From Coffea arabica (taxonomy: Eukaryota > Streptophyta > Magnoliopsida > Gentianales > Rubiaceae): 64,000 nucleotides of DNA. Made by a program: the position numbers and the translations under genes. Shown here piece by piece: positions 1-64,000 of the stretch (positions are counted from its first letter, which is position 1; each line of letters opens with the position of its first letter). Below the pieces are notes generated by a model. It saw only the letters and a list, made by a program, of their open reading frames with translations, was not told the DNA's origin and did no database searches. The stretch lies in NCBI RefSeq assembly GCF_036785885.1, contig NC_092312.1, positions 18,432,001 through 18,496,000 on the forward strand, read 5' to 3'.

Positions 1-262
1 TTTGGAGGACCTTCAACAGTATAAAGCTTCATTGGAAGAGTTGAAGAAAAAGCTGTTGATGAGAGCCGATGACTTGATGTTGTTGAAAAATTCTTCTTCT
101 TCTTCAACTAATTTGGGCTTAAATAATAGCGGTGATATCAATCCCGGCGTGACTGCAGTTGGTTGTGATGATATGTTATTCAATCAGACGACGACTGAAT
201 ACTGCAACAACTCCATCGTTCCTTATGGTTCTGATGACTTCGGAAATTCTCTGCAGGTTTGA
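1..262 (+). CDS. MADS-A copy 1, 3' part only (type I M-alpha MADS, AGL62-like)
   Basis: This is the last 86 codons of a single-exon type I MADS-box gene cut by the left edge of the window. It matches residues 155-240 of the full copy at 27802. It holds the second half of the leucine- and lysine-rich coiled-coil segment after the WW motif, a serine run and a polar C-terminus ending in NSLQV. The DNA-binding MADS domain lies outside the window. Relative to copy 2 it has Asp at residue 157 (Glu in copy 2) and Met at 180 (Ile in copy 2). Asp157 is shared with copy 3, so this end is not simply identical to the next unit. The truncation is a window effect, not a biological break. Confidence 0.85.
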   Translation, partial: LEDLQQYKASLEELKKKLLMRADDLMLLKNSSSSSTNLGLNNSGDINPGVTAVGCDDMLFNQTTTEYCNNSIVPYGSDDFGNSLQV

Positions 263-930
263 AGATCTGTGGTTGGCAAAGTCCGGATAAGTTTAATATA
301 TGCATGGCTTTCAGCAGTTTTTTTTTACTGTTTAGTTTATTGACGATTTTTCACAGTGTTGTTAGCGTTCGTTCCTTATGAATTACTATAAATTAGGCTC
401 TTGCAGTGTTTTATTTTATTGTGTTGACTGATGTCTCTTTTTTTGTTTTTGTCTTTCAGTGATTTTTAAGTAGGGAGTATTCTTTATCTCCCCCTCTATG
501 CGTGCATATATTTATATATATATGTGTGTGCGATCCAATCTTAAATAATTGATATTAGTGTTAAAAAGCACACTTACTTTGTGTGCAATTTAGAAATCAT
601 TATTATTTTTTATGAATTTGTAAATTTTATTGTTTCATTAATAAATTTTATAAGAACTTTTCATTAACAAACTTCAATTTATAATTAATTTTTTCTTCAA
701 TTAAAAATAGATAATTTGGTAATTGCAATATTTAGAGTGATTATGTTGGTAAATGTGATCACGTGACTTAGGGTAAAAAATTAATTTTCTAAGAATAAAA
801 TTGAAAGTTCGAAAAAAAATTGTAGAAAATATTTACACTGGCTGTCAATGCCCTCTTCTTATATATTGTATAAGATTGAGGGCCTGGACTAAATGACACC
901 AAATAGACAAAGTGAGATGTGTAAAAATAA
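263..930. other. 3' flank of MADS-A up to the truncated AspRS gene
   Basis: AT-rich spacer holding the MADS-A 3' UTR, a short TA/TG microsatellite near 508-531 and no recognisable exon. The missing C-terminal exons of the neighbouring minus-strand aspartyl-tRNA synthetase should lie here if that gene were complete. Reading the minus strand shows only stop-rich sequence. The array's founding breakpoint therefore lies in this interval or just inside AspRS intron 10 (263-1011). Confidence 0.6.
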
Positions 931-3900
931 TTAATCCAAGTTTCCTTTCCTTTTTCTTTTAAATCCAATAGTATATTGCATGAAATTAAAAGCTTTAAGC
1001 AGTAAACTTACAGGATCAATCAAGCCCAAATCATGGGCTACATACAACCTCAGCCTATCTAAAGTTTTATTTACTGATGCAGGCTGACCCACTGCAAACA
1101 AGATGAGATCACCTGATCCCGCAGATAAGTGTTTGAGTAACTTGTCTTTCTTTGTGTGGTCCAAGCATGATACCAGTGGGGAAATCCCTTCAATTGCCCC
1201 TAAAAGATATACATCAAGCACTAAGAACAATATAATCTGCAAAATGCGATGAAATGTGCAAACAATCACAAACATCACTCTCACCATCTTCTAACACCTT
1301 TAAGAAAGGCAAACCCTTTGCTCCAGATTTAATAGCTTCATTGTAAATATCACCTTTCTTCAAAGCAGTATTTGAGTATGTCTTTCCTCCTGAAGGGACA
1401 CACAAGGCTTTAACAATTCCCCCACTCTTCAAGGTATCTGCAAATGCCTTGAAGGAGGAATCTGAAAATATCTCAGATACCTGCAAGCCAAGACCATTAG
1501 GTAATCACTCCAAAAAACAAAAAATAGATTTAAGATTTCATAATATAGTATCATCTATGGTACCAAAAGAATGACAACCTGTCTCCCCCCCCCCCCCCCC
1601 CCCCTCTCCCAAAAAAAAAAAAGAAAAAGGGAAAAGAAACTATTTTTCTTGGGACAAACTGAAGAAGGGGCTATAGACTGCATTGGCAGCTCTCAGTTGA
1701 GAAAATTGAAAGAGATAAAGAATAAAAACAAATAATGCATGAAAACCAACAAGCTTTACATCTTTCAATCCAAGATCAAAACGAGTATCTGGCCTATCTG
1801 AACCGTATTGGCTCATGGCTTCAGCATAAGTGAGCCTTGGGAAAGGGTCAGGTAGCTGGACACCTTTGATCTCAAGGAAAACCTGCAGGAAAATATTTAT
1901 CATGCCCCGTCAACTTACCAGTTGAATATCAGAAGTAACAGCAAAAGTAATATCAATACAGAATTAAGAGTTGTATTAAACATCTAAATTGGGCCATCAG
2001 AGCCCTCATCTACCCATGTAACCCATGCCTCGCTAGACCCTAACTCCATGCTACAAAAGGAAAAATTGGACAGCATCCAGCTTTAAACTTCAGGGGAAAA
2101 AATCAAGCTTATTAGAACAAACAACTATTTCGGAACAAACCTACATATATATATATATATATTATTTGCTGATACCAAAAGGAATCATATGATAGACTAC
2201 AAGCATGACGAGGTAAAATTTACACTAAAACATACGTATAATTTGTTTCAATCTTCTAAAAGATATTTAGTCAGATAATGCAAAAGATTGTCATGTTTAC
2301 TCAGAAGTAATAATTATTTTCGGCACCACATATAGGCCAAGCATGTGCACAGCTGATGATGTTTAGCTTCTATACAGCAAAATGTTATACAAGTTTTAAC
2401 AAGATTAATGCTATTACAGTTCAATTCCCACACCCAGCCCATAACACAGGAGAATGTTACTAAAATTGGAAAGTAAAAGATCATACAAAAATCTACCAGG
2501 AGGTGCGAAACCTAGGTCATCAAATTCAAATACTAACCAATCAGTTGAAAAACAGGATTCAACCATCATATAGGCTCTGGTCGAAAATAACATTCGATTC
2601 AGAATTTCTGGAAGGTATTAAAAATTCAAATCAACAGTTTAGAGCCCCACAATGTACGTAAATTTAGTTATAATATTGCTATGGAAGAACAGCTTCTTTT
2701 AATGAAAATTTCAGGACATGTTTTACAGAATTTTATGTGCAGAAAATATATCTCACTTCAATAGAGGATTTTATCAAAGGTCTGAAGGAACTCACAAATT
2801 GTGAAATCAGATTATTGCTCTACTATCTATTAGGCTATCAACTACAGCAAACTAATTGGCAGGATCAAGGAAGTGAGAGGGGTCAGCTAAATGAAACGTA
2901 TCTTAACTCACTGGATCATTCTAATGCTTTTATCCCCACCTCATTTCATTTTGTGATTTGTTACCTCATCAAACTATTTCTACCACCCAAAAAAAAAAAA
3001 AAAGACAACCTTCCTAATCAAATCTTCATTAAGTCTGAGCATGTCCTCTAAGGGAGTGAAAGCCATCTCCATATCTAGTTGCGTAAATTCAGGTTGTCTA
3101 TCTGCCCTTAGATCTTCATCCCTGAAACACCTGCAAAGCAAGAGCAGATGAAGTCACATTGTGGTCTTGGTTGTATACTAATAAATGACCCAGCAATAAA
3201 TGCAAAATTTCTTGATCCCCCCTCTAGAATCCTTTTTCCTCATAATAATCTGAGGGGGGAAGGGGGGAGATCCTCTTCACATAAGTTGAACAATGTGTGG
3301 CAGAATGTAAAGATGCAAGAGAAAAGGGGAATTTAAATGAAAATCAACAGTCTGATCAAATAGTCGTAAACTTAAAACTTATTACCTTGCAATTTGATAG
3401 TATTTATCAAAACCAGAGACCATCAACATTTGTTTGAACAGCTGCGGACTTTGGGGCAAGGCATAAAATGTTCCTGGCTTTAAATGATGGAATTAAGCAA
3501 TCAGATTTTTATTTGATGACTGATATATCTCTGGAAAACATAAACTTGAAACGTAGAGAATTAGATGTTAAAAAGCCAATAAAACAAGTAAATATTTTTC
3601 ATCCTTGATGTTTCGATGTATCAAATGCTGTATGGAAATTGTTCAGCCTCCATCACTTCCAAAAGATCTACACGAGTTGTATTAAATGGCGTTCTCCTTT
3701 TCTTATCTTACAAGTTGCCTTGAGCGGGTTCTCAACAACAAAGGTAAAAAGTTTGGGGAATAACAGCTCAAATGCAATGAAATTTTAACTCTGAGTATAA
3801 ATTTGAGAAGCTAAAAACATAGGTAGCCATAAAAGGCTGGAGATTAAGCGTAGCTTAGAAAACACAATTTGGCTTGAATTCGAGATTGAAGCCTGATGGG

Positions 3901-6843
3901 ATGGGAATTCTTTCAAAATCACTAAGTCATCACCAGGACAAACGACAACATCAATACCAAGATTACATTTTGTTTTTCAATTCACTTCAACAGAAAACAA
4001 GGGAAAACACCAAAAGAGTGAAGAGGAGAAATTAGAGATAATCCCGAGATAGGTACATTTAACAGGGCAAATACTGTACCTGAATTCTTGAAGGGACAAG
4101 ATAATCCCGAGCACCTTCTGGGGTAGATCTAGATAGAATTGGAGTCTCAATCTGCCTTACAAACATGAAGGCAAGGATCAGAGAGTGGAAGAGACAGACT
4201 CCAGTAGAATCTTCTGATTGCACTAAGATGTTAAAATGCAAACATTACCTCCACAAAATCATGTACATCCTCAAGGTACCTTCGGATGAGTTTTACCACT
4301 TGATGCCGCAATATAATGTTGGAAGTCATTTGTGGCCGGCGCAAATCAAGGCATCGATATCTAGTAACAGGTATGGGGACCATTTAATCCGTACAGTTTA
4401 AGAGACATGCATCGAAGATCTTACAAGCAGTAAACAATCAATATATTTTAGGCTATGGAAAAAACTATGGCCTCTGAAGCATTGCATGCTTTAAAGCCAC
4501 AAACTACATTGAATAGAAAACACACATCATAGGGTATGGAACATGCAAAATGTGAGAATTGATGGTAAATAACCCATGCTACCTCTTCAACTATGTGGTT
4601 CAAAGATCAACATCACCAAAATCCCTTATCATCATATAGTGATATTACTTACTAATTTTATTTCTTCTCTTGTAAATGAGGCAAGCACTAGTATTCTTTT
4701 ACTTAAGCAGTTAAGTGTCTCAGAAACAACTAGAACAACAAACCATGACCCAAGCAAACTCCAGTTTACCCACTCCAGTCACAATACCACAAATTAGCGA
4801 GAGGAAGCAGAAACAAAAGTAGACCTTCAATCATTAAGAAATGCCCAACTCGACCAGAAAAGTAAAAATATCAATTATCAAGAGAACTAACAGCAATCTG
4901 CAGAGAGAAGCAAAACATAAGCCCATGGTCAAAAAACTTCAGAAAGTTTTCACCTCAAGCGAATTTCCTCCTTTACAGATTCTTTGGCATCATCTGCAGT
5001 AGTAACTAAGAAAGGCAGCTTAGATCTCACAGTATTCAGAACATGGACACGCTCAGCAGCCACCTGCAAACTTAAGCAATTGTACTAAAACCACCAAAAA
5101 GAATAATCATCCAGGAGCAAATCCAAGTTAAGGAAATAATAAAACAGCGGTCATCAGTTATTAGAATTCGTCTTCCACAATCAACTACACATCATAATTC
5201 CACAACCAACTTTGCAGAAACTAAGTAAATTGTGGAGCACTGAGATAAAGAACTCATCCATGAACATATGATTATAACATCAGCAACAATTCATTACCTT
5301 TCCTTCTCTCCTAGTCAATCACCAGCATCAGACTTCGATTTTCTCTTTCTCTGATGCACCTAAGCTGTGATCTTCTTCTAATAACACTTATAGAATAGCA
5401 ATTCAAACAAGGTCGTATTTTAACCATATTAATCATTACACTTGGAAGGTTTTTGCGGGGGAAAACATAAAACATTGCCCTTGGATTGTTCTTGTTACAC
5501 CTGTTAATTTTAACACTTGAACACTTCAAAAATTGGGCCAGGGGGACTGCTTGAACAAAAGCCTAAAAAGGTTTTCCTTCAAATCACAATGCAAAACACC
5601 CTTGACACAATAGATCTGGTTGAATTCATAACAACTAGCACCACGCCTTGTTTTCAGCCATAGGCATGTTATTCTCAGTTTCTTAAAGAGTTCATGGAGA
5701 CTAAACAGACAGGTGAACTGCCAAAGGAGACCTCAAATTCAAATTTTCTAGACTTACTATAGTGAGAATGTCATCAGTGACTTCCTTCAGCTGCTTTTTC
5801 TGTAATTATTGCAGAATGCATCCATCTATGCATAAAGATTTAAAGCTAAAGCAGAACACACCTCTACTGCACCAGTCCTCATCTTCTTGTTGACAGACTC
5901 AATTGGGCGAGGCCGAACAACACCTTCTACGGCCACCACATACTCAACTCTTAAGTCATTCACTGTTGAATGAGCATCAGGAAATTCGTTGGGAAGGGTC
6001 GTAATCTGAAATTCCCAAAGCACAAAAGGTAAAGACCAGTTCAACAACTCGCCCCAAAGATACTCTTTGTCGCAATTTCATCAAATAGCATATTCATAGC
6101 TACTCTTTCCCATGCAGCATTTATCGCAAATCAACAAGCATTCTCAACAAAGAAAACAAACCAAAACACGGATTGTAGACTGTAAGTACTGGTAACTTCA
6201 GACAGATTACTTCAAATAAAATTCCATCAATGTTCAAAATTTTCCACGTTTCCTAGGCAGAATGCCTTAAATTTCTGACTTAAGTAAACAAACTAATGGT
6301 CATCATGTTCAAAAATATTTATTACAATGGAAAAATAAAAGCAATAGCCAGTCAAGAACTATTACATGCTCAAGAAATGAAAGATTGAGAATTCATTATT
6401 TTTTTTTAAAAAAAAAAAGGAGAGAGAGAGAGAAGAAAATGAAAAATAAGTACCTGTACAACACCGGTATGGTCACGGAGATTAACGAAAGTGAGGCCAC
6501 CATGAACACGATGAAGGGCAACCCAGCCGCAGAGCCTGACCCGTTTATTCACATCAGCTTCTGACAATTCACCGCAGAAAGCGGTCCGGCTCACCCATTC
6601 AAGAGAAGGGATGGAGCGAGATACTTTAGGGGAAGCGGCAACAAGTGGTGTTTCAGTTGAAGAAGGAGAAGGAGACGAAGCAGAAACAGAAGGAGTTGAA
6701 ATGCAGCGTTTAGGAGGTTGCGTGGGTTTGAAGCTGGGGCTGTGCGAGTTTAGGAATAGAAGAGGCAATGGAGGTGGTTTGAGTGAGAAGTGTTTATAGC
6801 GGAAGGCTATACTGGGCAGAGCGCGGAGGAGTTGTGCGGCCAT
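931..6843 (-). CDS. Organellar aspartyl-tRNA synthetase, 3'-truncated, unit 1
   Basis: Bacterial-type class II aspartate-tRNA ligase (plant chloroplast/mitochondrial form), which charges tRNA-Asp. I traced ten exons with GT-AG borders: 6843-6454, 6005-5862, 5063-4954, 4360-4249, 4151-4080, 3477-3386, 3130-3010, 1882-1760, 1480-1285 and 1199-1012. Together they give 1548 nt, 516 in-frame codons. Visible parts are a Ser/Pro/Thr-rich transit-peptide-like N-terminus (about 1-75), an OB-fold anticodon-binding domain ([21 protein letters not shown]), class II motif 1 ([13 protein letters not shown]), motif 2 ([16 protein letters not shown]) and the bacterial GAD insertion domain. After LGLIDP there is a perfect donor (GTAAGT) but no following exon. 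The segment with motif 3 and its ATP-binding GLDR-type arginine, roughly 150 residues in the family, is absent. Reading into the intron adds 26 codons to a stop at 931-933. It is probably non-functional, though all traced exons are undamaged. Confidence 0.85.
1587..1621. repeat. Poly-C/poly-A tract in AspRS intron 8
   Basis: A run of C followed by CTCTCCC and a run of A. Its length differs between units. It is 4 bp longer here than at 29844-29877, which accounts for the shift in offset from 28,260 to 28,256 across this point. It is an unstable tract and useful as a copy-specific marker. Confidence 0.8.
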
Positions 6844-9756
6844 CTCGCGGCAGCCGCTTCAATTTTTCAATTGAGACTCTGAGCAGATAAGTCCATGGCC
6901 GGGGGACGAAGCCGAATTGAATTGAGAGTCCAAAACTATGTCGTTTTCCTGGTCCTTTTACTTCAGTGTAGATTGGGCTTGGCCTACCAAAGCTTGCTGA
7001 GCCAGCCTGCTCCATTTGATCCCAATGTTGTTGTTGACCCTAACCATAACGTGATTGGGGTTGGGCATGTACGCTCGATCTATTTTAAAATGAAACAAAG
7101 TTGGGCCAAGTTACGTAGGAAAATCAAGTGAGTTAAAATAACTTCCTTGCGTATATTTGTTTGACAAGAAAAATTTGTAGATAAAATAAGTAGTTAATTA
7201 TACTTATTGAAAATATTGTGGTAATCAAATATTTTTCCTTTAAAGTCCTGTAAATTTGGATGCAATGTGCAGAAAATTAAGGTAGTATTTGTTGGTAAAG
7301 AAAAATATGGAAGAGTAAAGGAAAGTTAGTTATATTTTCCTTTAGCTCCTTTGAGGTTTAACCAAATTGCCAAATAAACTCTATAATTCTACAAAGTTAT
7401 AGATAACCCTCTTTGTGGTAAACAAATATAATAAAGACACTTTTTGATGTGAGTTAATTATTTTACTAACATTATTGGTCCTCTCGTCATTAATGTTATC
7501 AACATCGTCTTATGCTAGAAATCCTAAAATGCCCTTGAAACCATAAATTCCTCATTTCCTTCTACCGGAATCTACGTAATTTGCAAAAGTCCACCAAGTT
7601 GGCTGCTGCCAAATTCGATAATCATGAATTCACAATCAAAATACAAACATGAATCCCATGAACATCCATCCATACATCAGTATATCCTTTTCATTAACAC
7701 AGCAAAAATTAAATCCAAATGCAACAATTACGAGCTCTTAAAGTGTTATAAAATTAAGTTGGATGTGTACCAAATCGTCAAAAAAAAATAAAAATGTATG
7801 CTTTGTGTAGGCCCTACTATATTTGTTTGAGCCTGAATATTTGTGATTGGAATAAAAGAGAATCAAGAAAGAAATGAAGGTAATTGTAAAAGGGAAATGG
7901 CTCATCAAATTTGGTGCACAAAAGGAGAGAGTTAATGAAGCCTGGATGGTGGTTTTGGAGAAAGAATAGAGTTTCGAATTTTTCATAAAAAGAAGATTTA
8001 GAGCTGAAGTTACAGTAATGCAGCAGTAGCAGGGATATTAATGAAGCAAGGGGAAGTCCGATCGAATAATTGAAGAACAAAAACAAGTTAGTGGAATAGA
8101 AAAACATACTACACTCTTTTTCTTTTCCATATTTCCTCAATTTCCTTTCACCAACCTATTTAGTTACCTTTTCTCTTTCCTACCCTTTATGTTTACTTAC
8201 ATCATTTTCCTTTATGTTGGTTTGTTATGTCCTGTATGCATGTTATTAAGAAATTGTTTTTCGTTATTTTTGTTTCTTTACTTCTTCTAATTTATTCATT
8301 AACTTCTCTTTGGAATGCAAAAATTATTATGTTTAGATTGTATTCTCTTCCTTTCTTCCTATCTTTTCTTCTCTCTCTCTCTCTCTCTCTTTGCTTTTTT
8401 GACAAGGATTAGTTAAAATTTGCAAATTGTAGGAATAAGGGCATTTTTATCATTTCAGTATCTCAGTTAACAGGGGTTTAGACACCATCCATTGTAAGGG
8501 TATAATTATAATTTGGTCAAGCTATAGAGCTTATTTGGTGTTTTGGCCCGACTTCAGGGGAGGTAAATGTAATTAAGCCTAAAATGAATTGGAATTTACG
8601 AGCATATTCATACAATTCTTTGGTCTCAAGTCACAGCAGCTGTTTTTTTCCTTTTTTTTTTTTTTTTTTTGTCTAACGAACACAGCTGTTGCTATCAGTA
8701 AAGTGGAGCGATTTCATTGGTCGGGCGCACAGGCCATCATTTGACGTGGTCTGCAACGTGCATGCAAACGCTTAGAAACTAATTATGGCATATGATTAAA
8801 CAAGGCTACATAAGCGGGCAAGAGTTGTATTAGCTCAGGATATATAAGTACACATTGGAAACGAGTTGAAAACATTGAAATCTGTAACATTATTAATGGC
8901 TTCTTAACCTTTAATATTTCGCAATGACTAATAATAAGAATAGTAATTATCAATGCATATTTCCATAAATAATTGATGATATTTACTACGTCTCTGATAT
9001 AAGCTGCTACTAAATACTAAGCTAAGGTAAGTATATTAAGAAGAAATCAAAATCTTCAAAAATCTTGTAAGCAGTCTTAATTATTATTATTATTAGTAAT
9101 AAATTTGTATCATAACTGAGAAGATAATAACATTAATTATAAACTATGGCATGCTTTTATTTTATTTCATTTGGAAAAAGTTACATGTGCATGGTGTTTG
9201 CCCGCTCAATATTACGTCGAAACGAGTGTTCTTTTTTCAAATAACGGTCCGATCGCTTATTACCTTAATTGACATGAGTACTTGACAAAGTAACAAAAAA
9301 TTATTTTACATTCTTGTGATTACAATGTAGTGGCATGTCGTATTACTTTTTTTTTTTTTTTGGGGTTTTGGAAATTTACATATCATTCCTTTTATGTATC
9401 CAGTATTTTCACATTGAGATTAGAATCGCCCAAAAAAAAAATCTTATGCAATAATAATTACTACTATTTTGTAAGTTCTTATCTATATATCAGCATTTAC
9501 CATTCAAGTGTTACATGCCTTTTAATTGCTTACTCTTTTTTTTCTTTTTTGTCTATTCTGGATTAGGCTGTGAATGTGACCAAAAGGTAAGAACAAGTTA
9601 ACAGTCTTGGCTTAAAAGGTAACAAGAAGTTAATAGTCATATCCTAAATGGTAGCAAAAATCTACAACGATGTGGCAGAAACTTCTAGGAAAATGAACAC
9701 ACCCTTTAAATCCCCAGCCACATTCCTCCCATTGGAACATAATTCCTGCTTAAACA
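6844..9756. other. Spacer between AspRS and MADS-B: promoter regions and microsatellites
   Basis: No coding gene is supported. The stretch from 6844 to about 7100 is the upstream region of AspRS and is richer in G+C than the rest. Further right are a CT microsatellite at about 8371-8390, a poly-T run at about 8654-8670, a second poly-T at about 9347-9361 and short ATT repeats near 9081-9095. Small open frames here are stop-limited noise without codon structure. The last several hundred bases are the MADS-B promoter, with a TATA-like CCCTTTAAAT at 9702-9711, about 46 bp before the start codon. Confidence 0.5.
9702..9711 (+). promoter_or_regulatory. TATA-like element of MADS-B, unit 1
   Basis: CCCTTTAAAT lies 46 bp before the ATG at 9757. 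The same ten bases lie 91 bp before the MADS-C start, which supports a shared core-promoter element in these paralogues. The transcription start is not known, so this is tentative. Confidence 0.35.
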
Positions 9757-10422
9757 ATGGCAAGAAAGAGCAAGGGTAGGCAAAAGATTGAAATGACAAG
9801 AATGTCAAAAGAAAGCAACTTACTTGTTACTTTCTCAAAGCGCCGCTCTGGCCTTTTCAAGAAGGCTTATGAACTCCACACACTTTGTGGTGCTGAAATT
9901 GCAATAATCGTTTTCTCCCCAGGGAAAAAGGTTTTCTCCTATGGCCATCCTTGCCTTTACTCCATCATCGATCGTTTCGTAACCGGAAAAGCTGGCCCGA
10001 GTTCGAGCAGTTCGCAAATTGTTGAGGCACACAGGGCAGCGAGCATTCGCGAACTCAACATGCAATTGACTGAAATGCTTAATCAGTTAGACGCTGAGAG
10101 AAAGCGTGGTGAGGAGCTGATCAAACTGAGGACAGCGAGTCAAGGAAGATGCTGGTGGGAGGCTCCGGTTAATGATCTTGGACTTCAAGAACTGAAGCAA
10201 CTAAAGGCGGCCATGGAGGAGCTGAAGAAGAATGTGGCCAATCAGGCAGAGAAGTTGATGGTGGAGGCTTCCAACGCGACTGCGTTTCTTGGGTCATCGA
10301 GTTCCAAGGGAGGAGGCCATGTTGGTCCAATTAACATTGACGCTAAGGTTCCTCCTCCTGGTCTGGGACTTTCTATGACTCCTCATGGGTTTGCACTTGG
10401 ATATGGTCGTGGATTTTTCTAA
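9757..10422 (+). CDS. MADS-B, type I M-alpha MADS-box factor (AGL61/AGL62-like), unit 1
   Basis: Single-exon gene of 221 residues. The MADS (SRF-type) DNA-binding and dimerisation domain spans about residues 7-66. It starts GRQKIEM and contains VTFSKRRSGLFKKAYEL and CGAEIAIIVFSPGKKVFSYGHP, the signature of plant M-alpha genes. It lacks the K-box of type II MADS genes. A predicted coiled coil follows, broken by a WWEAPV motif at W133-W134 and then GLQELKQL; all three MADS paralogues here share this block. The C-terminus is Gly/Pro/Ser-rich and ends GYGRGFF. Known relatives act in the central cell and early endosperm; that role is inferred for this copy. The copy at 38013 is identical. Start choice: first ATG, directly before the basic MADS segment, preceded by a TATA-like element. 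Confidence 0.93.
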   Translation: MARKSKGRQKIEMTRMSKESNLLVTFSKRRSGLFKKAYELHTLCGAEIAIIVFSPGKKVFSYGHPCLYSIIDRFVTGKAGPSSSSSQIVEAHRAASIRELNMQLTEMLNQLDAERKRGEELIKLRTASQGRCWWEAPVNDLGLQELKQLKAAMEELKKNVANQAEKLMVEASNATAFLGSSSSKGGGHVGPINIDAKVPPPGLGLSMTPHGFALGYGRGFF

Positions 10423-14164: not shown

Positions 14165-14320
14165 GGGTGCGTTTGGTACTATAGAATTGAAATTGAATTA
14201 GAATTCGAATTCTATAAAATTGGAATTCCAAGTCATTGCAATTCTTTCGTTTGGAAAATGCATAGAATTGGTATGGAATTTCAAATTCTTTATTTGCGTG
14301 AGAGAAGAATTCATTAGATA
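14165..14320 (+). mobile_element. MITE-like remnant beginning GGGTGCGTTTGGT, unit 1
   Basis: The segment opens with GGGTGCGTTTGGT, followed by palindromic GAATT-rich sequence. That opening word is common at the ends of plant MITEs. The element at 26536-26668 ends, on its minus strand, with the related GGGTGGTTTGGTTCC and then the same TATAGAATTGA. I could not find a matching right end here, so the boundary is approximate and the call is tentative. Confidence 0.35.
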
Positions 14321-53007: not shown

Positions 53008-55548
53008 CTGCAGGAGATCCATTGAAAAGATAATTTGAGTTCACAGCTAAACAACTTGGAAAATAAATGCAAAGGCACATGTGAGTAGAGGAATTAAATA
53101 ATACTCTCCCTCCTCATGCGTGGAAGGTATATCATTGTAATAGGCCAAACATGTGGGACAAAAAATTAATAGGATATACAGATAAAGCCCTCAGTAGGTT
53201 GACGTAATTTTCCATTACAAAGTACAATATCCATTTATTAATGCATCATAGACCCTAACCCATGTAAAATGTAGTCCCCAGCAAAACAAGATACATTGTG
53301 TGATTGAGAGCTTGGACTCCCTAGAGAAGCACTAATCAACTAAAGCAGTCTTCACTCAATAATCAACCAAAGCTAAACGGTCTCCATTCAGAATATTAAA
53401 CTGTTTGTCAAGCATCAGAAAGAACAATATAAAAGCTTCATAGAAGCATTCTCCGAGATCACAGATTAACAAGTTAAGATTGGAGCATTTCTCTGTCCAG
53501 GGAATCAAGCATATAAAAGGAAATCTTCGCAGAATGGTTTAACTAGTAAGACCACATGGTAGATCTCTAGCTAGCCATCCTTTGAGCAGCCATATCCATG
53601 AGAGAAAAACCTCACATGACCTGCTTTTTGTCCAGTTTTCAGTTGCTCTTATTTCTCACTCACACAGTATGACATTGGCTTTTATTCGTGAATGGGATAT
53701 ATCTAACAAAGAGAGGGCAATAAAGTGAAAAGGAAGGAAGAATGATAGAGAAGAAAACTTGCAATTTTTCTCAATGAAGCCACGAGGTTAGGCTTTCTGT
53801 ATAATGGTTTAGTGCTCATGAAATTGCGACTCATTATATAATTTTCAGACTTTTTAAACTATAATCAAATTTTGACATGCGAAATATGAAGAGAACTGAG
53901 CAGTGGCTTAAGTTAGTGTGTCAATAAGTTTGGACATTTCTGTAGTGAAAAAGACAAATCAATAATTAGAATTATTTTCATGAAACATTTGCTTACATAA
54001 AATTTTTATTTTATTTTTACATAATAATTTTTTTCTTACATCTAGCTAATTTTTACTAAAAATTTAAAGGAAAAAATCAATTTATGCCTTTAATAATTTA
54101 TTTTTTCGTGCATTTAGCTAATTGTTACTAAAGTTTTAAAGAAAAAAGCAAATTACTTCCTTTTTTTTGGCAAAATACCAGCCAAAGCCCCAAAACCAGC
54201 TGAGACATTCAGCAAAAATTACAACCAACAATGACAATATAAATAGAAAATATTGCAACAATGACAATATAAAGTGTCATTGAATTCAAGCCCCGTAGAA
54301 TTGAAATTTAATTCTAATTATTTGGGAAAGTTAGAAGCCAAACAAAAGAATTAGAATTGAGGCTTCCAATTCCAATTCTATGCCTCAATTCTATAGGAAC
54401 CAAACCTCCCAAACAAAAGTGTCATTGCTTAAATTGTTTCAAAGCCTGCCCCATTCATTTCACCCCCAAAAAAAATAATAATAACAAAACGGAACGTAGA
54501 GAATAACTTCACTGTGGTTCAATTCCTGGACGTAATTAGGTGAGGCAACTTATACAATGCACAAAAAGTAGTTGAGTTGATTTTTTCCATTCAATTTGAG
54601 CGGATGAGGGGTGAAAGTGGAATTTAACAAGCTCCATTCCTAGAGTCCGAGCTACATCGCACTTGCCTGGCACGGATTAAGGAAATAATTGGAAAAATTG
54701 TTTACTAAGAGTCCTATATACTAAATACATGTAAATCATACTCGATTACCGCCCACGGATTAAGGAAATAATTGGAAAAGTAGTTTCCTTTTTATTGATC
54801 TATTTAACGAAGTTGAATTGAGAACATTTTGGAGACACTTTAGTTGTCACCAAGCTGAGGAAATAAATTTTTCTAATTTTAACCTAGGCAAGAAAATACT
54901 TAGCCAAAAAAAGAAGAAGAAATAATTAGATTTTTGGAAGTATATATGTTTCTATATGTTGATGCATGAATTCATCCAAACAATATGTATATCGCTTTGC
55001 TAAAAGATAATAAACCATTAACTACTTAAACTAACTACACATGCCATTAAATAACAATTTGATCGTTTGTTTTTTTTTGTAATTTTGATGAAATGATTAG
55101 ATCGATAGTTCTCAACAATGCCATTTTCTTGGTCAGTGTGAGAGAGTAAATTATGTTTTGCCAGGAAAAGAAGAAAATAGCTGTTAATTCTAGACAAATT
55201 GTCCATTTCTAAGTTTAATCCATCAATCAATGAGGAGTTAACACTAATTTATATTTTGTCGAAAAAAAAGAGAGAAAAAGATAGAGATGTTACTCTACAT
55301 AAATCATCCATTTCTAAGTTTAATCCATCAATCAAGGGGAAATTAGGAGGGTGAAACAATGGAAACTGGAGAAAATATATCGACCGAATCACAATAAAAT
55401 CTTTGACGTTTTTAGGAAACAAAATTACGGGTAAATATTAAGGAATGTGGAACCTTATATAATAATAGGATGGGATGCCAAAGCAATGTAGCTAGCCCTT
55501 AATTCATCAAAATCCCACCAAAAGACAAAAAAAAAAAAAAAGGCGAAA
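53008..55548. other. Spacer between broken AFG1-like and MADS-A of unit 3
   Basis: Counterpart of 24753-27801 with the 508-bp deletion at about 53078, many single-base differences from the unit 1 version, the MITE at 54271-54427, the 28-bp direct repeat near 55202-55335 and the MADS-A TATA box at 55456-55464. No complete gene is seen. Confidence 0.5.
54271..54427. mobile_element. MITE-like element before MADS-A of unit 3
   Basis: Same element as 26524-26680, with AAAGTGTCATTG at 54271-54282 and 54416-54427. It differs by a few bases (for example CCTCCC where unit 1 has CCACCC near the right end). Confidence 0.5.
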
Positions 55549-56271
55549 ATGAACAACATAATGATGAAGAAGAAGACGACCCAAGGTCGAAAAAAAATCG
55601 AGATCAAGAAGATAGACAACTTGAGCAACAGGCAAGTAACCTTCTCCAAGCGAAGAGTCGGTCTCTTCAAGAAAGCAAGTGAACTTTGCGTCTTGACCGG
55701 GGCAGAAGTTGCCATCATCGTTCATTCTTTGGGCAAGCGCGTCTTTGCTTTTGGTCACCCCAACATTGACGCTGTTATTAACCGCTATACCACGGGATCG
55801 GCATCATCATCATCATCATCATCCTCCTCGTCATCCGTTGCTGATCCGAAAACCCCATTGGGTGCTCATGAGATTCAACAACACAACCGACACTATGCTA
55901 AAGTGTCCAAAGAATTAGAGGTCGAGAGAAAAAGAAAGGAATTGATTGAAGGTTCGAAGTTAGAGAACGGTGGGAGTTTTTGGTGGGATGACCCAATTGA
56001 GCATATGGGTTTGGAGGACCTTCAACAGTATAAAGCTTCATTGGAAGAGTTGAAGAAAAAGCTGTTGATGAGAGCCGATGACTTGATATTGTTGAAAAAT
56101 TCTTCTTCTTCTTCAACTAATTTGGGCTTAAATAATAGCGGTGATATCAATCCCGGCGTGACTGCAGTTGGTTGTGATGATATGTTCTTCAATCAGACGA
56201 CGACTGAATACTGCAACAACTCCATCGTTCCTTATGGTTCTGATGACTTCGGAAATTCTCTGCAGGTTTGA
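55549..56271 (+). CDS. MADS-A, type I M-alpha MADS-box factor (AGL62-like), unit 3
   Basis: Full-length third copy, 240 residues, with MADS domain 13-72, serine run 86-96, WW at 145-146 and an intact tail. It differs from the unit 2 copy by Met4Ile, Ile102Thr, Glu157Asp and Leu213Phe. All lie outside the MADS domain, which is unchanged. With copy 1 it shares Asp157 but not Met180. The 3' flank carries further substitutions. This is the most diverged MADS-A here, and its open frame with changes confined outside the DNA-binding domain suggests it is still functional. Confidence 0.93.
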   Translation: MNNIMMKKKTTQGRKKIEIKKIDNLSNRQVTFSKRRVGLFKKASELCVLTGAEVAIIVHSLGKRVFAFGHPNIDAVINRYTTGSASSSSSSSSSSSVADPKTPLGAHEIQQHNRHYAKVSKELEVERKRKELIEGSKLENGGSFWWDDPIEHMGLEDLQQYKASLEELKKKLLMRADDLILLKNSSSSSTNLGLNNSGDINPGVTAVGCDDMFFNQTTTEYCNNSIVPYGSDDFGNSLQV

Positions 56272-56939
56272 AGATCTGTGGTTGGCAAAGTCAGGATAAG
56301 TTTAATATATGCATGGCTTTCAGCAGTTTTTTTTTACTGTTTAGTTTATTGATGGTTTTTCACAGTGTTGTTAGCGTTCGTTCCTTATGAATTACTATAA
56401 ATTAGGCTCTTGCAGTGTTTTATTTTATTGTGTTGACTGATGTCTCTTTTTTTGTTTTTGTCTTTCAGTGATTTTTAAGTAGGGAGTATTCTTTATCTCC
56501 CCCTCTATGCGTGCATATATTTATATATATATGTGTGTGCGATCCAATCTTAAATAATTGATATTAGTGTTAAAAAGCACACTCACTGTGTGTGCAATTT
56601 AGAAATCATTATTATTTTTTATGAATTTGTAAATTTTATTGTTTCATTAATAAATTTTATAAGAACTTTTCATTAGCAAACTTCAATTTATAATTAATTT
56701 TTTCTTCAATTAAAAATAGATAATTTGGTAATTGCAATATTTAGAGTGATTATGTTGGTAAATGTGATCACGTGACTTAGGGTAAAAAATTAATTTTCTA
56801 AGAATAAAATTGAAAGTTCGAAAAAAAATTGTAGAAAATATTTACACGGGCTGTCAATGCCCTCTTCTTATATATTGTATAAGATTGAGGGCCTGGACTA
56901 AATGACACCAAACAGACAAAGTGAGATGTGTAAAAATAA
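56272..56939. other. 3' flank of MADS-A, unit 3
   Basis: Counterpart of 263-930 with several substitutions and small indels relative to unit 2. The first few hundred bases match unit 1 better than unit 2 at some sites (longer TA run, CAATCTTA, GTTAAAAAGC). No exon is seen. Confidence 0.55.
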
Positions 56940-57736
56940 TTAATCCAAGTTTCCTTTCCTTTTTCTTTTAAATCCAATAGTATATTGCATGAAATTAAAA
57001 GCTTTAAGCAGTAAACTTACAGGATCAATCAAGCCCAAATCATGGGCTACATACAACCTCGGCCTATCTAATGTTTTATTTACTGATGCAGGCTGACCCA
57101 CTGCAAACAAGGTGAGATCACCTGATCCCGCAGATAAGTGTTTGAGTAACTTGTCTTTCTTTGTGTGGTCCAAGCATGATACCAGTGGGGAAATCCCTTC
57201 AATTGCCCCTAAAAGATATACATCAAGCACTAAGAACAATATAATCTGCAAAATGCGATGAAATGTGCAAACAATCACAAACATCACTCTCACCATCTTC
57301 TAACACCTTTAAGAAAGGCAAACCCTTTGCTCCAGATTTAATAGCTTCATTGTAAATATCACCTTTCTTCAAAGCAGTATTTGAGTATGTCTTTCCTCCT
57401 GAAGGGACACACAAGGCTTTAACAATTCCCCCACTCTTCAAGGTATCTGCAAATGCCTTGAAGGAGGAATTTGAAAATATCTCAGATACCTGCAAGCCAA
57501 GACCATTAGGTAATCACTCCAAAAAACAAAAAATAGATTTAAGATTTCATAATATAGTATCATCTATGGTACCAAAAGAATGACAACCTGTCTCCCCCCC
57601 CCCCCCCCCCCTCCCAAAAAAAAAAAAGAAAAAGGGAAAAGAAACTATTTTTCTTGGGACAAACTGAAGAAGGGGCTATAGACTGCATTGGCAGCTCTCA
57701 GTTGAGAAAATTGAAAGAGATAAAGAATAAAAACAA
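56940..57736 (-). pseudogene. AspRS remnant, exons 9-10 only, unit 3
   Basis: Only the last two traced exons of the truncated AspRS gene remain, at 57489-57294 and 57208-57021, with about 250 bp of intron 8. Homology to unit 2 stops at 57736, 28 bp short of where exon 8 would end. Exons 1-8, the promoter, motifs 1 and 2 and the anticodon-binding domain are all gone. The remaining codons carry changes not seen in units 1 and 2 (Asp to Asn in IFSNSS, Ile to Thr in DLTLF, Leu to Pro in DRPRL), as expected without constraint. It cannot encode a synthetase. Confidence 0.88.
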
Positions 57737-58463
57737 GTTTACATAATATAGTTAAGATAGTTTACATAATGATTCTTTTTGAGAAATAAATATCTTGGGA
57801 GAATAATTAATCTAGGATTATTTCCTTTTTCTTTGTTATAAGTTTTATTGTTTTTGCTGCTGGTACTCTCCTAATAAAGTACAAAGCAAGTGAATTTGAA
57901 ACTTTATGGTCCTGTAATTTTAGGTTTAGGTCGTATTATGCGAGAATTAAATCAAACTCAGAGCCTCAGATGCTAACTGAAGTGATAGGAGGACCAAATG
58001 ATATCTAGAATAAACAAAAATGATTGTTGCTTTGCTTAGCCGTGCTTAGGCTTAGTTTGCTGCTGCCCAATTTCAGTCATTTGTTTTACAAAACATTGCA
58101 CAAATAAGGTCTTCAGAATTGCTGGAATTTCATATTTAAATTGCTCAAAAGAGTCCGAGAATTCTTACGTTTCCAATAAAAAAATTTCCACCTTCATGAA
58201 CATGCATTTAATATATTAACATGAGGAAATCAGAATTCTGTTCTTAGCATCTCCAAGCAGTAGTGCAGCAAGTTAACTCTTTGGTGTCGTGCTTAACTGT
58301 TTAAGCTGTTGTATAAAACTGGACTGTTCTTTCTTTATTTATATATTCCTATGCTCGAGGAAGTGTACATTCTGTTTGATTACATTTCTTTTGTCATGTA
58401 TAAGCATCATGTTAAAGTTTTGGCTGTATTTGTGATGGATTATTGCGAATCATTTTGCCATAG

Positions 58464-61017
58464 GTTCCTTGACATTCTGCATGAGGCTCCTTTATTTGGT
58501 CACCGGAAGCCTACTAGCATTTTGGGGAGTATATTCTACTGTATTTTGCTGGCAAGTGGTAGCTATTATCTGCTTCGGAGTCAACTAAGTTAATTACTAC
58601 ATTTTCAGTTTGTACCAAGAACTGCTGATTTTCTTGAATTTTAGGCAGGTTATGCTATTATTGCTGCTGGAGCTACATGGTTTTTTCACCCTCAACCGGA
58701 ACTGATTTCACCTTTGCTCTGTAGTTCTGATGTCATTCTTTTGGTAATCACAGGTACATGCTTGGTCTTCTTTACCCTTTTTTGATGTATTCTTCGATGT
58801 GATGACTTAACTGCCCTGGAAGTTGGCGGTGATTTTAACTTTGCTTTTTGCAGGCTTCATCTTTCAAGTTTCATTTGATTTAGATGTCATATAATTCATC
58901 TCAGTTTTTTTGAGTTTTCTTTTCAAATACTTCCTGATCTGTAGTTTATCATTGTTACTGTGTTTTCCAGGTTTATTTCAGCAATACCTTGTCTATCAAG
59001 TGCAGAAAATACGGTTACAGGTTCTCTCTCTCTCTCATACACACACTCACACACACGCACAGACACACATACACACACAGAAGCACATACATAAACATGA
59101 GTTCATATGCATTTGGGGTATGTATGTGTATAATCCTTTCTATTTATCAATTGATTTCAAGTCCATCTTGGTACTAATTTGTTTTCTTTTGTGTATGTAT
59201 GTTTCTTTTCTTCCAACTTTGGGAAGATGTAAATAATTCTTTGAACTAAAGGTAGAACTTCAGAAGGAAACCTTAACCATCATTGTCAACTGCATAAATA
59301 ATTTGGAAGCCAAAGTTTTGATTGAATTTTGGGATTTGTGAAGTCTAAGCTAAGAGAGGAGCTAATAAATTGACTAAAGAATTAGGTATAAGACAACACA
59401 CAAGGCGAGATGTGAGGAGATTGGTGGAATCATGGGGACATTAGGACATTCTGAGTGCACATGTGTTCGTAATAGTTATGTTCTTGAACTAATTTATGTG
59501 TGCTGTTATTTTACTTAGCAAGTTTATGAGTATTTTTCTTGATCTCTTGGTTGCTGTTATTTTATCCCAGCTTAAAATTTGTAGCTTTTGAAGCTTAGAT
59601 TCAAGGCATGCATGTGTTTTGTAGGGTTACTACGTTTTCAGCCAAAAGTTGAAGCACATTATTCGCCTACCTTTTGCTGTTATAGCATGTGGTACGTTTG
59701 TATCTGCATTTTCATGCCCTATGATGTTGTAACCTGAAGAATTTCTAAATATGAAGAAATCATAGTAAATATTTACTCCATTTTGACATCAAATTAGTTT
59801 GTCCCATTCTATATAGTCTAGTGTTTATCTCGCATTTGGACGCAGTTCTTTGCTTTTTGTTTGAAGACATTTTCAGAATTCAATCTTCACCTAGCATTTT
59901 TTAGTCCTTAAGTAGGTCATCTTTGCCTTTTGACCAGTCTTCCATCCAAATATTACTGGAAATCTTACTAAATTACTACTTTTTCTTTTTCATTTTAAAT
60001 TATTATTCTTTTTCTTTAAGTTCCTTGTTTACTGCATGATGATCAACCTTCTTTTATTGAATGTTCCTCCATTTATCTCTTGTAATACCTTGCTCGTATT
60101 CTTCACAGAAATACTGAAATGTAGTCAGCACCTTTTTGGCTTTCAATGAGATATCTCTATGATATATGCACTGCAGGAACTGCAGCTATGCTGCTTATCC
60201 ATGTCTGGGAAATTTATATACGCTTTCTGTCCATATCAACAATACTTAGGTATGCTATTAGTTCTTTGAATACATACTCAAGTTCACTAGGTTCATCTGG
60301 ACTAATGTAAACTCTCTTTTTTCAATCTGTCTGGAAGAAACAAACATGCATATGTTAAGCACTTTTTTTTATGTGAAAAGTTACTTTTGCCAAATGCAAG
60401 AAGCATATGTAGCATCTAGGAATCCATGATTGCTGCCAAGGGAAACTGTTCATTTCTGACTATTTAATCACTTAGCATTAAATGTGCAGGATTATTATGC
60501 TAGCTGAGATAATTTGTGCTGCGTTCTTCATGAGTGTCTATATTGGTGAGTTTTGACTGGCTAATTGTTATATGTAGTCATTAAAAATTCCACATTTTTT
60601 TGGCAATTAAATCGAGATGCTTTTGTTAGGATCTTGTTGATGACTGCACTGACATGCATTCTATCATATAATAGCAACTTCATCTTGCTTAAAACTTTAT
60701 TACTTTTGCCTATCAAGCACTACACTAACTAGTCCAGTATATAAGGTTCAACTATAGCTGATTTGCTATCAGTTATAATTTTTCTTTCTGCAGGCTTCCA
60801 ATTTTTAGTCATATGTAAGCATTGTAATGTTTTGGACTATGAATGCTGCAATGGCCAGCACAAGTAGCTCCACAATGGTTCTTGTGCCATCAGTGTTTAA
60901 TAAACATTTCTGTGCTGCAGGTTATGTACACCAGTACAGTGCATTGGATTCTCAACCTGATGTTTTGAAATCATTATATTCTCCACTTCAACCATCCAGC
61001 TCTCTGGAAGAGTTAAG
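58464..61017 (+). pseudogene. Fragment of a four-helix membrane-protein gene (possibly TMEM192-like), seven exons
   Basis: Exons 58464-58551, 58645-58753, 58971-59020, 59625-59691, 60177-60249, 60491-60546 and 60921-61017 join in frame to about 180 residues. Four hydrophobic helices are visible: SILGSIFYCILL, VILLVITGLFQQYLVY, LPFAVIACGTAAMLLI and IIMLAEIICAAFFMSVYIG. They are followed by YSALDSQPDVLKSLYSPLQP. The four-helix layout is reminiscent of the TMEM192 family, but this comes from memory and is weak. The first exon needs two bases from an upstream exon, and the last ends in an open phase before a good donor, so both ends of the gene are missing. The exons show no stops or frameshifts, so the fragment was moved recently or the rest lies in unsplit flanks I did not recognise. 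The first intron uses either a GC donor at 58552 or a weak GT donor at 58556. Confidence 0.6.
59038..59080. repeat. (CA)n-rich microsatellite in an intron of the membrane-protein fragment
   Basis: Interrupted CACACA tract after a CT run. Its translation gives low-complexity His/Thr strings in all frames, so the open frames over it are not genes. Confidence 0.75.
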
Positions 61018-62113
61018 GTAACAATATTACAATGGTCGGACTGCTTCAGCCTCTGAACAATTTTTCAGCTAGTTTACTTTCTTTCCTGTAATGTCTTAAG
61101 GCTGATGTGGTAGGTCACCACACAGTGTAGGTGATTGCTTTCACTACCATAAAATTAACCTTCCACTGCCCCCGGTACCTCCCCTATCCAGAAGTTGTAC
61201 TACATAATAGCGCATTTTGAGAACTTCTGATGACTCTGCTACACTTTTTGCCAGCAGTTCTCTTGAAACCGTTCTGTTACTGCCGGCATTTGAAACTTCC
61301 TGATAATTGCTAATCATGAGCTTGAGTTATATTAGACCACTTTGGATACCAATCTATCTAAACTAGATGTTCCAAGTCTATTTGTGTGCTTAAACTTCAA
61401 CACTCTTTTTCACCACCTCTTGGTCATTCTTCTGCAGATGCATATCCAAAGTTTGCTTTCTATTTGTCATTATTGTATTACCTTGATGAAACTAGAATGT
61501 ATATTGTTGTAAAGCAGGAGTTTTCATGTTCAACTGGCCTATAAGGCAAAGTATTATGTAACAAATCCATGACATCATGATGTATTTGTGCTCACAATCT
61601 TCTCTTCTACATGAATTCTTGCATTTATGAAGATGTTCTCAGCATCTAGATAAATGCTTTCATGATTGTTATCCCAATTTAATTTTGGGAATGATTATTG
61701 CTCTTATCTCATTCAATACTCTGGAAGATCACAGATAAATGGAGATAAAGTACTGAAACAGTAGGCCATTATTGTGCTTCCAGACCCAAGCAGAAAATGG
61801 GCAAGTAATTTTTGGTGCTCAATTGAAATCAAATGCTGCTTCTGTGCCAATTAGCTTGCCTGGATTTGGATTTTTTTTGGGGCTCGACTGAGATGGCTCA
61901 ATTGTGGTTTGAAAGTGGCATTTTTGAAATACTTTCCTAGGATGAGAGTTTTGATAATTAAGTTGAAATGTGTACAACTGTGACGTGGTTGGTTTTAATG
62001 CACTCTAATAAGGACATCTGGTTTTTTTTTTTTTTTTAGATTTTGTATTCTGAAAATCAGTACTTGGGATAGCACACTGATAAGGATGTCTCTTTTCTTT
62101 TCTTTATGTCTTA

Positions 62114-62624
62114 ATCCTAATTACTACTAGCGTTTTATGGTGAAAACAGTTATACACAGCATTTTGCTCCTCTATAAATGCTCTTCCATCTTTCGGCTCT
62201 TTATGAAGACATAAGTAACGTGCCAAAAGCACTTTCTGTGCTCTAACAAATGCCTACAGAGTGAGTGTGAGTGCCAATTGATCATCAATTCATACCCAAA
62301 ATGAGTAGAGAAACACATATATATGAGTTGACTTTGGCTTGCAATAATAACTGATACTTCACCTTGTAATGCCAACTAAGAGAAGATTTATGTCACACCA
62401 TCATAGCATTAAGATCTAAGATTTTTTTAAACTCCCAAATCAAGGGTAATTATGCCTAATGATTACATATACTAGCTAGCACAAATTACAATCAATCTAT
62501 CCAGATTCAAGAGTAAACTTGAGGCCCTTTAAATTGTTGCTTCTCCACTTTATCCATAACTCTTCATAGAACCACCAAACCTAACCTAAAAAACCTCTCT
62601 CCCTCTTGTATTCAGAAGAAGATC
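62114..62624. promoter_or_regulatory. Retained 511-bp upstream region of MADS-C, unit 3
   Basis: Homology to the array resumes at ATCCTAATTACTACTAG (12831 in unit 1, 41087 in unit 2) and continues to the MADS-C start. It keeps TATAAAT at 62173-62179 and CCCTTTAAAT at 62525-62534. Everything farther upstream is replaced by foreign DNA, so any distal elements are different for this copy. Confidence 0.6.
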
Positions 62625-63296
62625 ATGGCAAAGAAACCTAGCATGGGTCGCCAAAAGATCAAAATTGCAAAAATTGAGACCAAGAATCATCTCCAAGTTA
62701 CATTCTCAAAACGCCGTTCGGGACTCTATAAGAAGGCGCACGAACTCAGCACTCTCTGTGGCGTTGAATTAGCCATTATAGTTTTTTCCCCAGCGGGAAA
62801 AGTATTTTCTTTTGGCCATCCTAGTGTCGATTACATAATCGATAAATTCATTGCGCGATGCAGAAATCCTCAGCCAAACTCGAGTGCACTCCACCTCGTT
62901 GGGGCTCACAGGAATGCCAGTAGTGTCCGGGAGCTCAACTTGCAGCTCACTCAAATTCTCAGTGAATTAGAAATTGAGAAGAAAAGAGGCGAGGCATTTG
63001 ATCTCATGAGAAAAGCCAGCCAAAATCATTATTGGTGGGAATCCCCTGTTAATGAACTTGGATTACACGAACTTGAACAACTAAGAGATTCACTGGAAAA
63101 CATGAAAAACAGTGTGACGAGTCATGCTAGCAAGGTGGCGGCTGAGGCTAATTACAACAATTCTTCATTTTTTACACTAAACAATGGTGCTGCTGCGGGA
63201 TTGTATCATCAATATGAGAGCAAACCAACCGGGGTCAGCGTGGGTTCGGTCCATCCTAATATCTTCAACTTTGGATATGATAATGGAGGATTTTGA
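62625..63296 (+). CDS. MADS-C, type I M-alpha MADS-box factor (AGL61/AGL62-like), unit 3
   Basis: Third full-length MADS-C, 223 residues, with the MADS domain, the WWESPV block and the GYDNGGF end intact. It differs from units 1 and 2 by Ile19Thr in the basic N-terminal part of the MADS domain, Val117Ile and Cys188Gly. Its neighbours have changed: the membrane-protein fragment lies on its left, and on its right the sequence passes within 300 bp to the region that precedes MADS-A. It is the only array gene besides MADS-A that is complete in unit 3. Confidence 0.93.
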   Translation: MAKKPSMGRQKIKIAKIETKNHLQVTFSKRRSGLYKKAHELSTLCGVELAIIVFSPAGKVFSFGHPSVDYIIDKFIARCRNPQPNSSALHLVGAHRNASSVRELNLQLTQILSELEIEKKRGEAFDLMRKASQNHYWWESPVNELGLHELEQLRDSLENMKNSVTSHASKVAAEANYNNSSFFTLNNGAAAGLYHQYESKPTGVSVGSVHPNIFNFGYDNGGF

Positions 63297-64000
63297 AGCC
63301 TATTCGGTATAAACTTATCTCGTTTTTCCGATTTGACTTTGGTGGATCAAGCTAGTGCCTCGCTAGTCTAAACTGTCAATAATTAGGTCATTGCTCTTCT
63401 CTGATGATTCCTCCATCAATCTACTGTAAATAGTTTAATCTCATAAAGGGTGCGTTTGGTACTATAGAATTGAAATTGAATTAGAATTCGAATTCTATAA
63501 AATTGGAATTCCAAGTCATTGCAATTCTTTCGTTTGGAAAATGCATAGAATTGGTATGGAATTTCAAATTCTTTGCGTGAGAGAAGAATTCATTAGGAAT
63601 TAGAATTATTTTCATGAAATATTTGCTTACATAAAATTTTTATTTTATTTTTATATAATAATTTTTTTCTTACATTTGGCTAATTTTTACTAAAAATTTA
63701 AAGGAAAAAATCAATATATGCCTTTAATAATTTATTTTTTCGTGCATTTAGCTAATTGTTACTAAAGCTTTAAAGAAAAAAGCTTACTTCCTTTTTTTTG
63801 GCAAAATACCAGCCAAAGCCCCAAAACCAGCTGAGACATTCAGCAAAAATTACAACCAACAATGACAATATAAATAGAAAATATTGCAACAATGACAATA
63901 TAAAGTGTCATTGAATTCAAGCCCCGTAGAATTGAAATTCAATTCTAATTATTTGGGAAAGTTAGAAGCCAAACAAAAGAATTAGAAATAAGGCTTCCAA
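63297..64000. other. End of unit 3 and start of unit 4
   Basis: From 63297 to about 63596 the sequence follows the MADS-C 3' flank, including the GGGTGCGTTTGGT MITE-like word at 63448. From 63598 it follows the sequence found at 26217 upstream of MADS-A, with small indels, and includes the left part of the MITE from 63902. By alignment a MADS-A copy would start roughly 1.2 kb beyond the window. Confidence 0.8.

Follow-up and report, generated by a model that had tools for sequence, protein, structure and literature searches.

A tandem array of chimeric units carrying putative AGL62-like MADS genes on one of two homeologous chromosomes 2 in a Coffea arabica assembly

Introduction

How does a small cluster of MADS genes come to be multiplied on one chromosome of a polyploid, and from what DNA are its repeated units built? 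These questions are raised by a 64,000-bp stretch of Coffea arabica DNA (C3:18432001-18496000; hereafter the window), in which predicted AGL62-like genes recur together with unrelated neighbours. In a review, AGL62 is linked to endosperm proliferation and to dose-sensitive seed size, and is named as causal in an Arabidopsis endosperm crossing barrier (PMC13293092), while M-alpha* genes are defined by endosperm expression and by pairing with M-gamma (PMC8788222). Coffee is grown for its seed, and an array of genes that appear to be of the AGL62 type is of interest for that reason.

The window was compared with the whole genome (1,197,963,845 bp in 131 contigs). From assembly statistics, we take contigs C3/C4, C11/C12 and C15/C16 to be the homeologues of chromosomes 2, 6 and 8, respectively. 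Chromosome lengths follow those of Kona Typica (PMC12307819): across 11 pairs, r = 0.996 when the shorter homeologue is used and 0.971 when the two are averaged. The longer homeologue exceeds Kona Typica by several Mb in some pairs, most of all in pair 11 (62.7 vs 47.3 Mb). An alternative reading of C3 and C4 as alleles of a phased diploid was replaced by the homeologue reading, since the assembly statistics match those of ET-39.

Results

Two full units and one rearranged unit

A preliminary description of this DNA had proposed a 28.3-kb block repeated head to tail three times or more, with a fourth start at 63598. The repeat itself is present, in the form of two full units of 28,262 and 27,747 bp, and what follows is a rearranged unit: from 56010 onwards only 1,731 bp match the unit start, and the idea of a third full copy within the window was rejected, as there is no further full 28-kb match. 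The last stretch, 63598-64000, repeats 26217-26622, and position 63598 therefore lies upstream of a further MADS-C and is no block start. The count of seven complete open MADS frames plus one cut by the edge was borne out, the complete frames (221-240 aa) starting at 9757, 13342, 27802, 38013, 41598, 55549 and 62625. The features of the window are as follows.

1..262, forward: 3' part of MADS-C, cut by the window edge (whole gene C3:18431540-18432262)
931..6858, reverse: bacterial-type aspartyl-tRNA synthetase (AspRS), with GAD exons at 931-1504 and a first exon with the OB fold at 6406-6858
9757..10422, forward: MADS-A of unit 1, 221 aa (open reading frame; SRF-TF 6e-23)
13342..14013, forward: MADS-B of unit 1, 223 aa (open reading frame; SRF-TF 4.9e-24)
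14318..14640, forward: 323-bp filler, 318/323 identical to C3:63931545-63931868 (minus strand)
14641..26217, forward: 11.6-kb chromosome 8 segment with C16 as likely donor (search query 15800-24800)
15800..16463, forward: EG45-like gene inside the chromosome 8 segment (Pfam DPBB_1 6e-12)
22394..24894, reverse: AFG1-like ATPase exons inside the chromosome 8 segment (three joined exon pieces 4.6e-7; a single exon, at E 0.024, falls below the cut-off)
24825..25329, no strand: about 508 bp kept in unit 1 with C16-like spacing and deleted in unit 2 (shared 3-bp ACA)
27802..28524, forward: MADS-C, 240 aa, spanning the join of units 1 and 2 (open reading frame; SRF-TF 7.9e-21)
28263..56009, forward: unit 2, copy of 1-28262, 27,747 bp (sequence match)
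38013..38678, forward: MADS-A of unit 2 (open reading frame)
41598..42269, forward: MADS-B of unit 2 (open reading frame)
55549..56271, forward: MADS-C of unit 2 (open reading frame)
56010..57736, reverse: MADS-C end and 3' half of AspRS (a truncated AspRS copy), rearranged unit
57737..57747, forward: 11-bp templated filler GTTTACATAAT, with the same letters at 57760-57770
57748..62110, forward: 4.4-kb chromosome 6 segment (C11/C12; search query 57800-62100)
62109..63596, forward: MADS-B piece of the rearranged unit, joined to MADS-C upstream DNA as on C4
62625..63296, forward: MADS-B of the rearranged unit, 223 aa (open reading frame; 3 amino-acid changes from unit 1)
63598..64000, forward: DNA upstream of the next MADS-C (gene at C3:18497178-18497900, beyond the window)

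Across 24.8 kb, identity between unit 1 (1-28262) and unit 2 (28263-56009) is 99.94%, with 9 mismatches and 3 gap openings, and not a single substitution separates them between unit positions 2530 and 23098; 508 bp of unit 1 are absent from unit 2, and the ends of this deletion share ACA. In the rearranged unit, 4.4 kb of chromosome 6 DNA stands in place of unit positions 1732 to 12826, so that MADS-A and the 5' part of AspRS are missing. No counterpart of 57737-62108 was found elsewhere in the window, and 62109-63596 is a repeat of the MADS-B piece at 12827-14317. Short tandem repeats of 25 and 72 bp upstream of MADS-C (26246-26416 and 54029-54163) vary slightly between units, and are possible markers for telling copies apart.

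Units contain DNA matching other chromosomes

What the preliminary description had left out is that the units are chimeric, containing two kinds of inserted DNA that match other chromosomes. All five full units carry 323 bp followed by 11.6 kb of chromosome 8 DNA between MADS-B and MADS-C. The chromosome 8 segment is found in five copies on C3 and once each on C16 (99%) and C15 (98%); no C4 copy was among the matches listed for the query 15800-24800, and no match was found at the C4 locus. On both homeologues a stretch 82% similar to the EG45-bearing part adjoins the donor locus (C16:235325-235860 and C15:666916-667467), which supports chromosome 8 as the source. The 323-bp pieces, five in the array and identical to each other in the search, have partial relatives nearby on chromosome 2, for example at C3:64.17 Mb (94%). 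At 5/323 differences (1.5%) from its best match, against about 0.1% for the adjoining chromosome 8 piece, the 323-bp piece is the more diverged of the two, implying either that its real donor is another copy or that the two arrived in separate steps.

Of 31 matches to the chromosome 6 segment, three are full copies on C3, identical to each other in the search, C11 and C12 contribute one apiece, and the remaining 26 are shorter than 90 bp; query 57800-62100 gave no long match on C4. No Pfam domain was found in the 4 frames of this segment that were tried.

Across the first insert (MADS-B/323 bp/chromosome 8/MADS-C) the joints overlap by 1, 0 and 2 bp; the chromosome 6 insert has an 11-bp filler at its near end, whose letters recur 23 bp downstream, while its opposite end overlaps by about 1 bp. 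As a control, a random 11-mer of the window was found in a random 60-bp stretch of donor DNA in 1 of 20,000 draws. On C4, MADS-B runs directly into MADS-C, as it does in the rearranged unit, with a one-base difference at the insertion point. Taken with the ACA of the 508-bp deletion and the AGC of a deletion in the first unit of the array (below), these 0-2-bp overlaps and the templated filler are marks of end joining.

The repeated genes resemble AGL62

An N-terminal MADS (SRF-TF) domain was recovered by Pfam in MADS-A, -B and -C and in the MADS-B of the rearranged unit (7.9e-21 to 1.2e-24), with no further Pfam domain above the cut-off and, at E 0.001, no K-box in any of the four proteins. 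Each gene is one uninterrupted frame of 221-240 codons, the lack of introns being judged from the frame alone. Absence of a K-box together with a single-exon frame is a hallmark of type I MADS genes. In pairwise BLASTP comparisons with approximate reference sequences, MADS-A, -B and -C align to AGL62 at 48.5, 49.5 and 36% identity over 194-257 aa, extending beyond the MADS core; the M-gamma protein AGL80 aligns only across 47-50 aa within that core, and SEP3 across 56-81 aa. MADS-A and MADS-B are themselves 47% identical. These comparisons support a classification of all three as putative AGL62-like type I MADS genes. Coding changes between array copies are too few for a usable rate ratio; the five inner MADS-A copies carry two amino-acid differences from C4.

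The three passenger genes of the preliminary description are AspRS, an EG45-like gene and an AFG1-like gene. Its account of three type I MADS genes amplified in tandem segments along with passengers stands, as does the AGL62-like label in so far as similarity of sequence can carry it. AspRS is a gene of the host locus, also present on C4: Pfam identifies GAD (7.4e-11) and OB-fold (2.3e-7) domains, and its joined exon pieces match AspRS in the PDB at 1.6e-19, where a single piece alone gave no match. In the sequence fetched from C3, AspRS is present in five copies whose two marker exons match those of unit 1 exactly; there are also an older copy that has a deletion, a pair of 3' fragments and part of a copy in the last unit. 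On C4 there are one copy and a 3' fragment.

The array is large on C3 and a single set on C4

The window covers about one period of a larger array (C3:18393025-18577040) that repeats roughly every 65.6 kb, each period consisting of unit 1, unit 2 and the rearranged unit. Comparison of C3:18393025-18474358 with C3:18458672-18540000 gave 7 mismatches and 15 gap positions across 81 kb. At the left of the array lies a diverged first unit, 1.56% away, in which MADS-B is deleted; it has two deletions, one with a 3-bp overlap (AGC) and the other without overlap. To the right of the main array, at C3:18577038-18637080, is a second array of 11 MADS-C-like copies with 5.06- and 6.1-kb spacing, of which 8 have an open frame of just 149 codons and 3 a longer one (among the 150 of 260 family-search candidates scored). 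This second array is older than the main one.

MADS-C is found 20 times on C3, counting the second array, and once on C4 (27/27 candidates scored). For MADS-B the figures are 8 full copies plus 1 truncated copy against 1 (12/12 candidates scored), and for MADS-A 7 against 1, as drawn from the 150 of 260 candidates scored in the family search together with fetched sequence outside C3:18540001-18570000. This brings C3 to 36 MADS copies, including the truncated MADS-B and the 11 of the second array, and C4 to 3, with MADS-A again counted from the 150 of 260 candidates scored. Copies in C3:18540001-18570000 and 18590001-18640000 are known from the searches.

Among the 150 of 260 candidates scored in the family search, MADS matches on C11 (20926501-21064193) recur at about 52.76 kb (20947589/21000353 and 20961385/21014147), which suggests another segmental duplication of MADS genes. 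Within the same 150 of 260, C17 has two equal-score matches with 388-codon frames on opposite strands, 53 kb apart (6914949, plus; 6967622, minus), a possible inverted duplication.

Divergence and the order of events

The chromosome 6 segment differs from C11 by 0.66% (13/1,982) and from C12 by 1.21%, with C11 and C12 0.56% apart, as compared over 2.0 of its 4.4 kb. The middle 5 kb of the chromosome 8 segment differ from C16 by 0.061% (3/4,938) and from C15 by 1.18%, where C15 and C16 differ by 1.11%; its edges add 0/152 on the left and 3/353 on the right, giving 6/5,443 (0.11%) to C16 over all compared letters; the right edge is thus less similar to the donor than the middle is. Between one 65.6-kb block and the next, 3 substitutions and a 4-bp gap were counted across 45.9 kb. 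From these steps, the chromosome 6 capture looks older than the capture from chromosome 8, which looks recent, and the duplication of blocks looks youngest of all. The polyploidy event of Arabica is dated to 350-610 thousand years ago (PMC11018527), and the chromosome 8 counts are too small to place that capture before or after it.

Across the AspRS/MADS-A/B segment, four of the five full copies differ by 0-0.007% (0-1 substitutions in 13.4 kb), whereas full copies stand 0.67-0.68% from C4; the last unit is 0.2% from other units, and the left flank differs by 1.46% between C3 and C4. Since the full units are so close to each other relative to C4, and their inserts lack a long C4 match, amplification of the full unit would have followed the split of C3 and C4. 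Other parts of the array are older. In the rearranged unit, MADS-B stands 0.74% from its counterparts elsewhere in the array and equally far from C4 (array copies to C4, 0.47-0.74%), two classes of MADS-C within the array are 0.73% apart and 0.88-1.08% from C4, and a copy of the second array has a dS of 0.04. The 0.74% and 0.73% values suggest that several unit lineages reach back to about the time when C3 and C4 split, so that loss on C4 may explain some of the imbalance.

Discussion

We interpret the locus, with a probability of roughly 0.7, as a chimeric tandem array of recent origin on one of the two homeologous chromosomes 2, generated by end-joining capture of foreign DNA followed by unequal crossing-over. 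An older small cluster of AspRS, MADS-A, MADS-B and MADS-C would have been broken, one set and an AspRS fragment remaining on C4. Repair by end joining with template capture would then have brought chromosome 6 DNA into one unit, and another unit would have taken up 323 bp and 11.6 kb of chromosome 8 DNA between MADS-B and MADS-C. Unequal crossing-over between units may then have multiplied these joints, giving 28-kb units first and 65.6-kb blocks next. Old lineages among the units count against the simplest form of this account, in that the cluster must already have had several units beforehand. While the array structure, the matching donors, the joints and the open frames can be read directly in the assembly, it is the repair route and the order of these steps that we infer from them.

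How far the count of copies can be trusted depends on the assembly. An array that is real, but in which the number and arrangement of copies partly reflect the assembly process, its identical stretches being longer than the reads, is the most serious competitor, albeit one we hold to be the less probable reading. The ET-39 HiFi assembly was built from a 20-kb fragment library and a di-haploid line (PMC11018527); the 65.6-kb blocks share identical runs of up to 34.3 kb, and units share runs of up to 20.5 kb, both longer than the fragments of that library, and the copy number is therefore uncertain. The identity of the three chromosome 6 segments and of the five 323-bp pieces points the same way. 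Against this, the units carry variants (the 508-bp deletion, MADS-C classes 0.73% apart, a last unit 0.2% away) that argue for several distinct copies, and assemblers usually collapse such repeats. Furthermore, allelic copies are unexpected in the di-haploid source line (PMC11018527). The joints and the presence of several distinct copies are consequently better supported than copy number or order. The imbalance might instead reflect contraction, both homeologues having once held several units, some of which C4 then lost. In keeping with this, C4 retains the joint between MADS-C and the AspRS fragment, an old joint common to C3 and C4, and several C3 lineages date from about the split (first unit 1.56%, rearranged-unit MADS-B 0.74%, MADS-C classes 0.73%, second-array dS 0.04). 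We nevertheless consider it unlikely that contraction accounts for a good part of the imbalance, as the four full units compared are 0-0.007% apart and 0.67% from C4, where neither insert query (15800-24800 and 57800-62100) gave a long match.

Two further routes would explain the chimeric units differently. One repeated block joins segments matching four loci, as might be expected if several loci had been joined in extrachromosomal circular DNA and reintegrated after amplification, like EPSPS in Palmer amaranth. This appears improbable, given that all long copies of the chimeric segments belong either to the donor pair or to the direct array, which sits at the native locus, and that unequal crossing-over explains the stepwise series of ages. 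Least probable of all is that the inserts are gene-capturing transposons of the Helitron or Pack-MULE type, despite the genes in the chromosome 8 insert, the clean ends of the chromosome 6 insert and the several chromosome 2 relatives of the 323-bp piece. The ends of the chromosome 6 segment share no 14-mers, direct or inverted, except for a T run and a self-palindrome, and the empty site on C4 reveals no clear target duplication (a 1-bp difference, 0-2-bp overlaps, with the chromosome 8 segment judged by its ends alone). In addition, the joints resemble end joining, and beyond the array long copies of the chromosome 6 and 8 segments are confined to one homeologous pair each.

Under the preferred reading of end-joining capture and unequal crossing-over, the likely consequence is a higher dose of AGL62-type M-alpha factors, a prediction from gene content, along with a raised dose of the AspRS, EG45 and AFG1 passengers. 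A rather improbable extension is that, after polyploidy, one subgenome rebuilt its endosperm M-alpha dose through very recent, repair-made amplification of chimeric units, some copies gaining an upstream region from chromosome 6, and that this alters seed (bean) development or crossing between lines differing in copy number. If the copy number holds, the 7- to 20-fold imbalance between homeologues would offer a direct test of M-alpha dose in a polyploid. Moreover, the joints, likely donors and unamplified partner locus are all visible in one assembly, so that break, capture and unequal exchange can be ordered by divergence. Within the limited coverage of our literature search on the topic, no title or abstract reported this coffee MADS array.

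Several known systems invite comparison. Polymerase-theta end joining leaves short overlaps at joints and short templated insertions from nearby DNA. The coffee joints are similar in their overlaps and filler, but differ in that the captured piece reaches 11.6 kb and includes genes. The EPSPS unit of Amaranthus palmeri is reportedly made of segments from several genomic places, a likeness to the coffee units; however, the coffee array is chromosomal and direct, whereas the amaranth amplification is described as lying on extrachromosomal DNA (PMC6808082). For M-type MADS genes generally, a review describes birth-and-death evolution in which frequent duplication, pseudogenes and high copy number are usual (PMC13293092). 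Unlike what is described there, the coffee case involves segments of 28 and 65.6 kb with passengers, near-zero divergence among full units and one homeologue. The closest parallel is EPSPS in Kochia scoparia, for which a published study describes a direct tandem array at one locus with dominant unit lengths of 56.1 and 32.7 kb and co-duplicated neighbour genes, and proposes unequal crossing-over and microhomology repair (PMC6808082). Both are direct single-locus arrays with two unit lengths, passenger genes and foreign DNA at unit joints. The Kochia insert is one mobile element, some units are inverted and copy number confers herbicide resistance, whereas in coffee each insert matches one locus on a different chromosome, amplification concerns predicted developmental regulators and no selection is known. 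With direct head-to-tail units at the native locus and an unamplified homeologue on C4, the coffee array as assembled has the layout of an amplicon of the Kochia kind.
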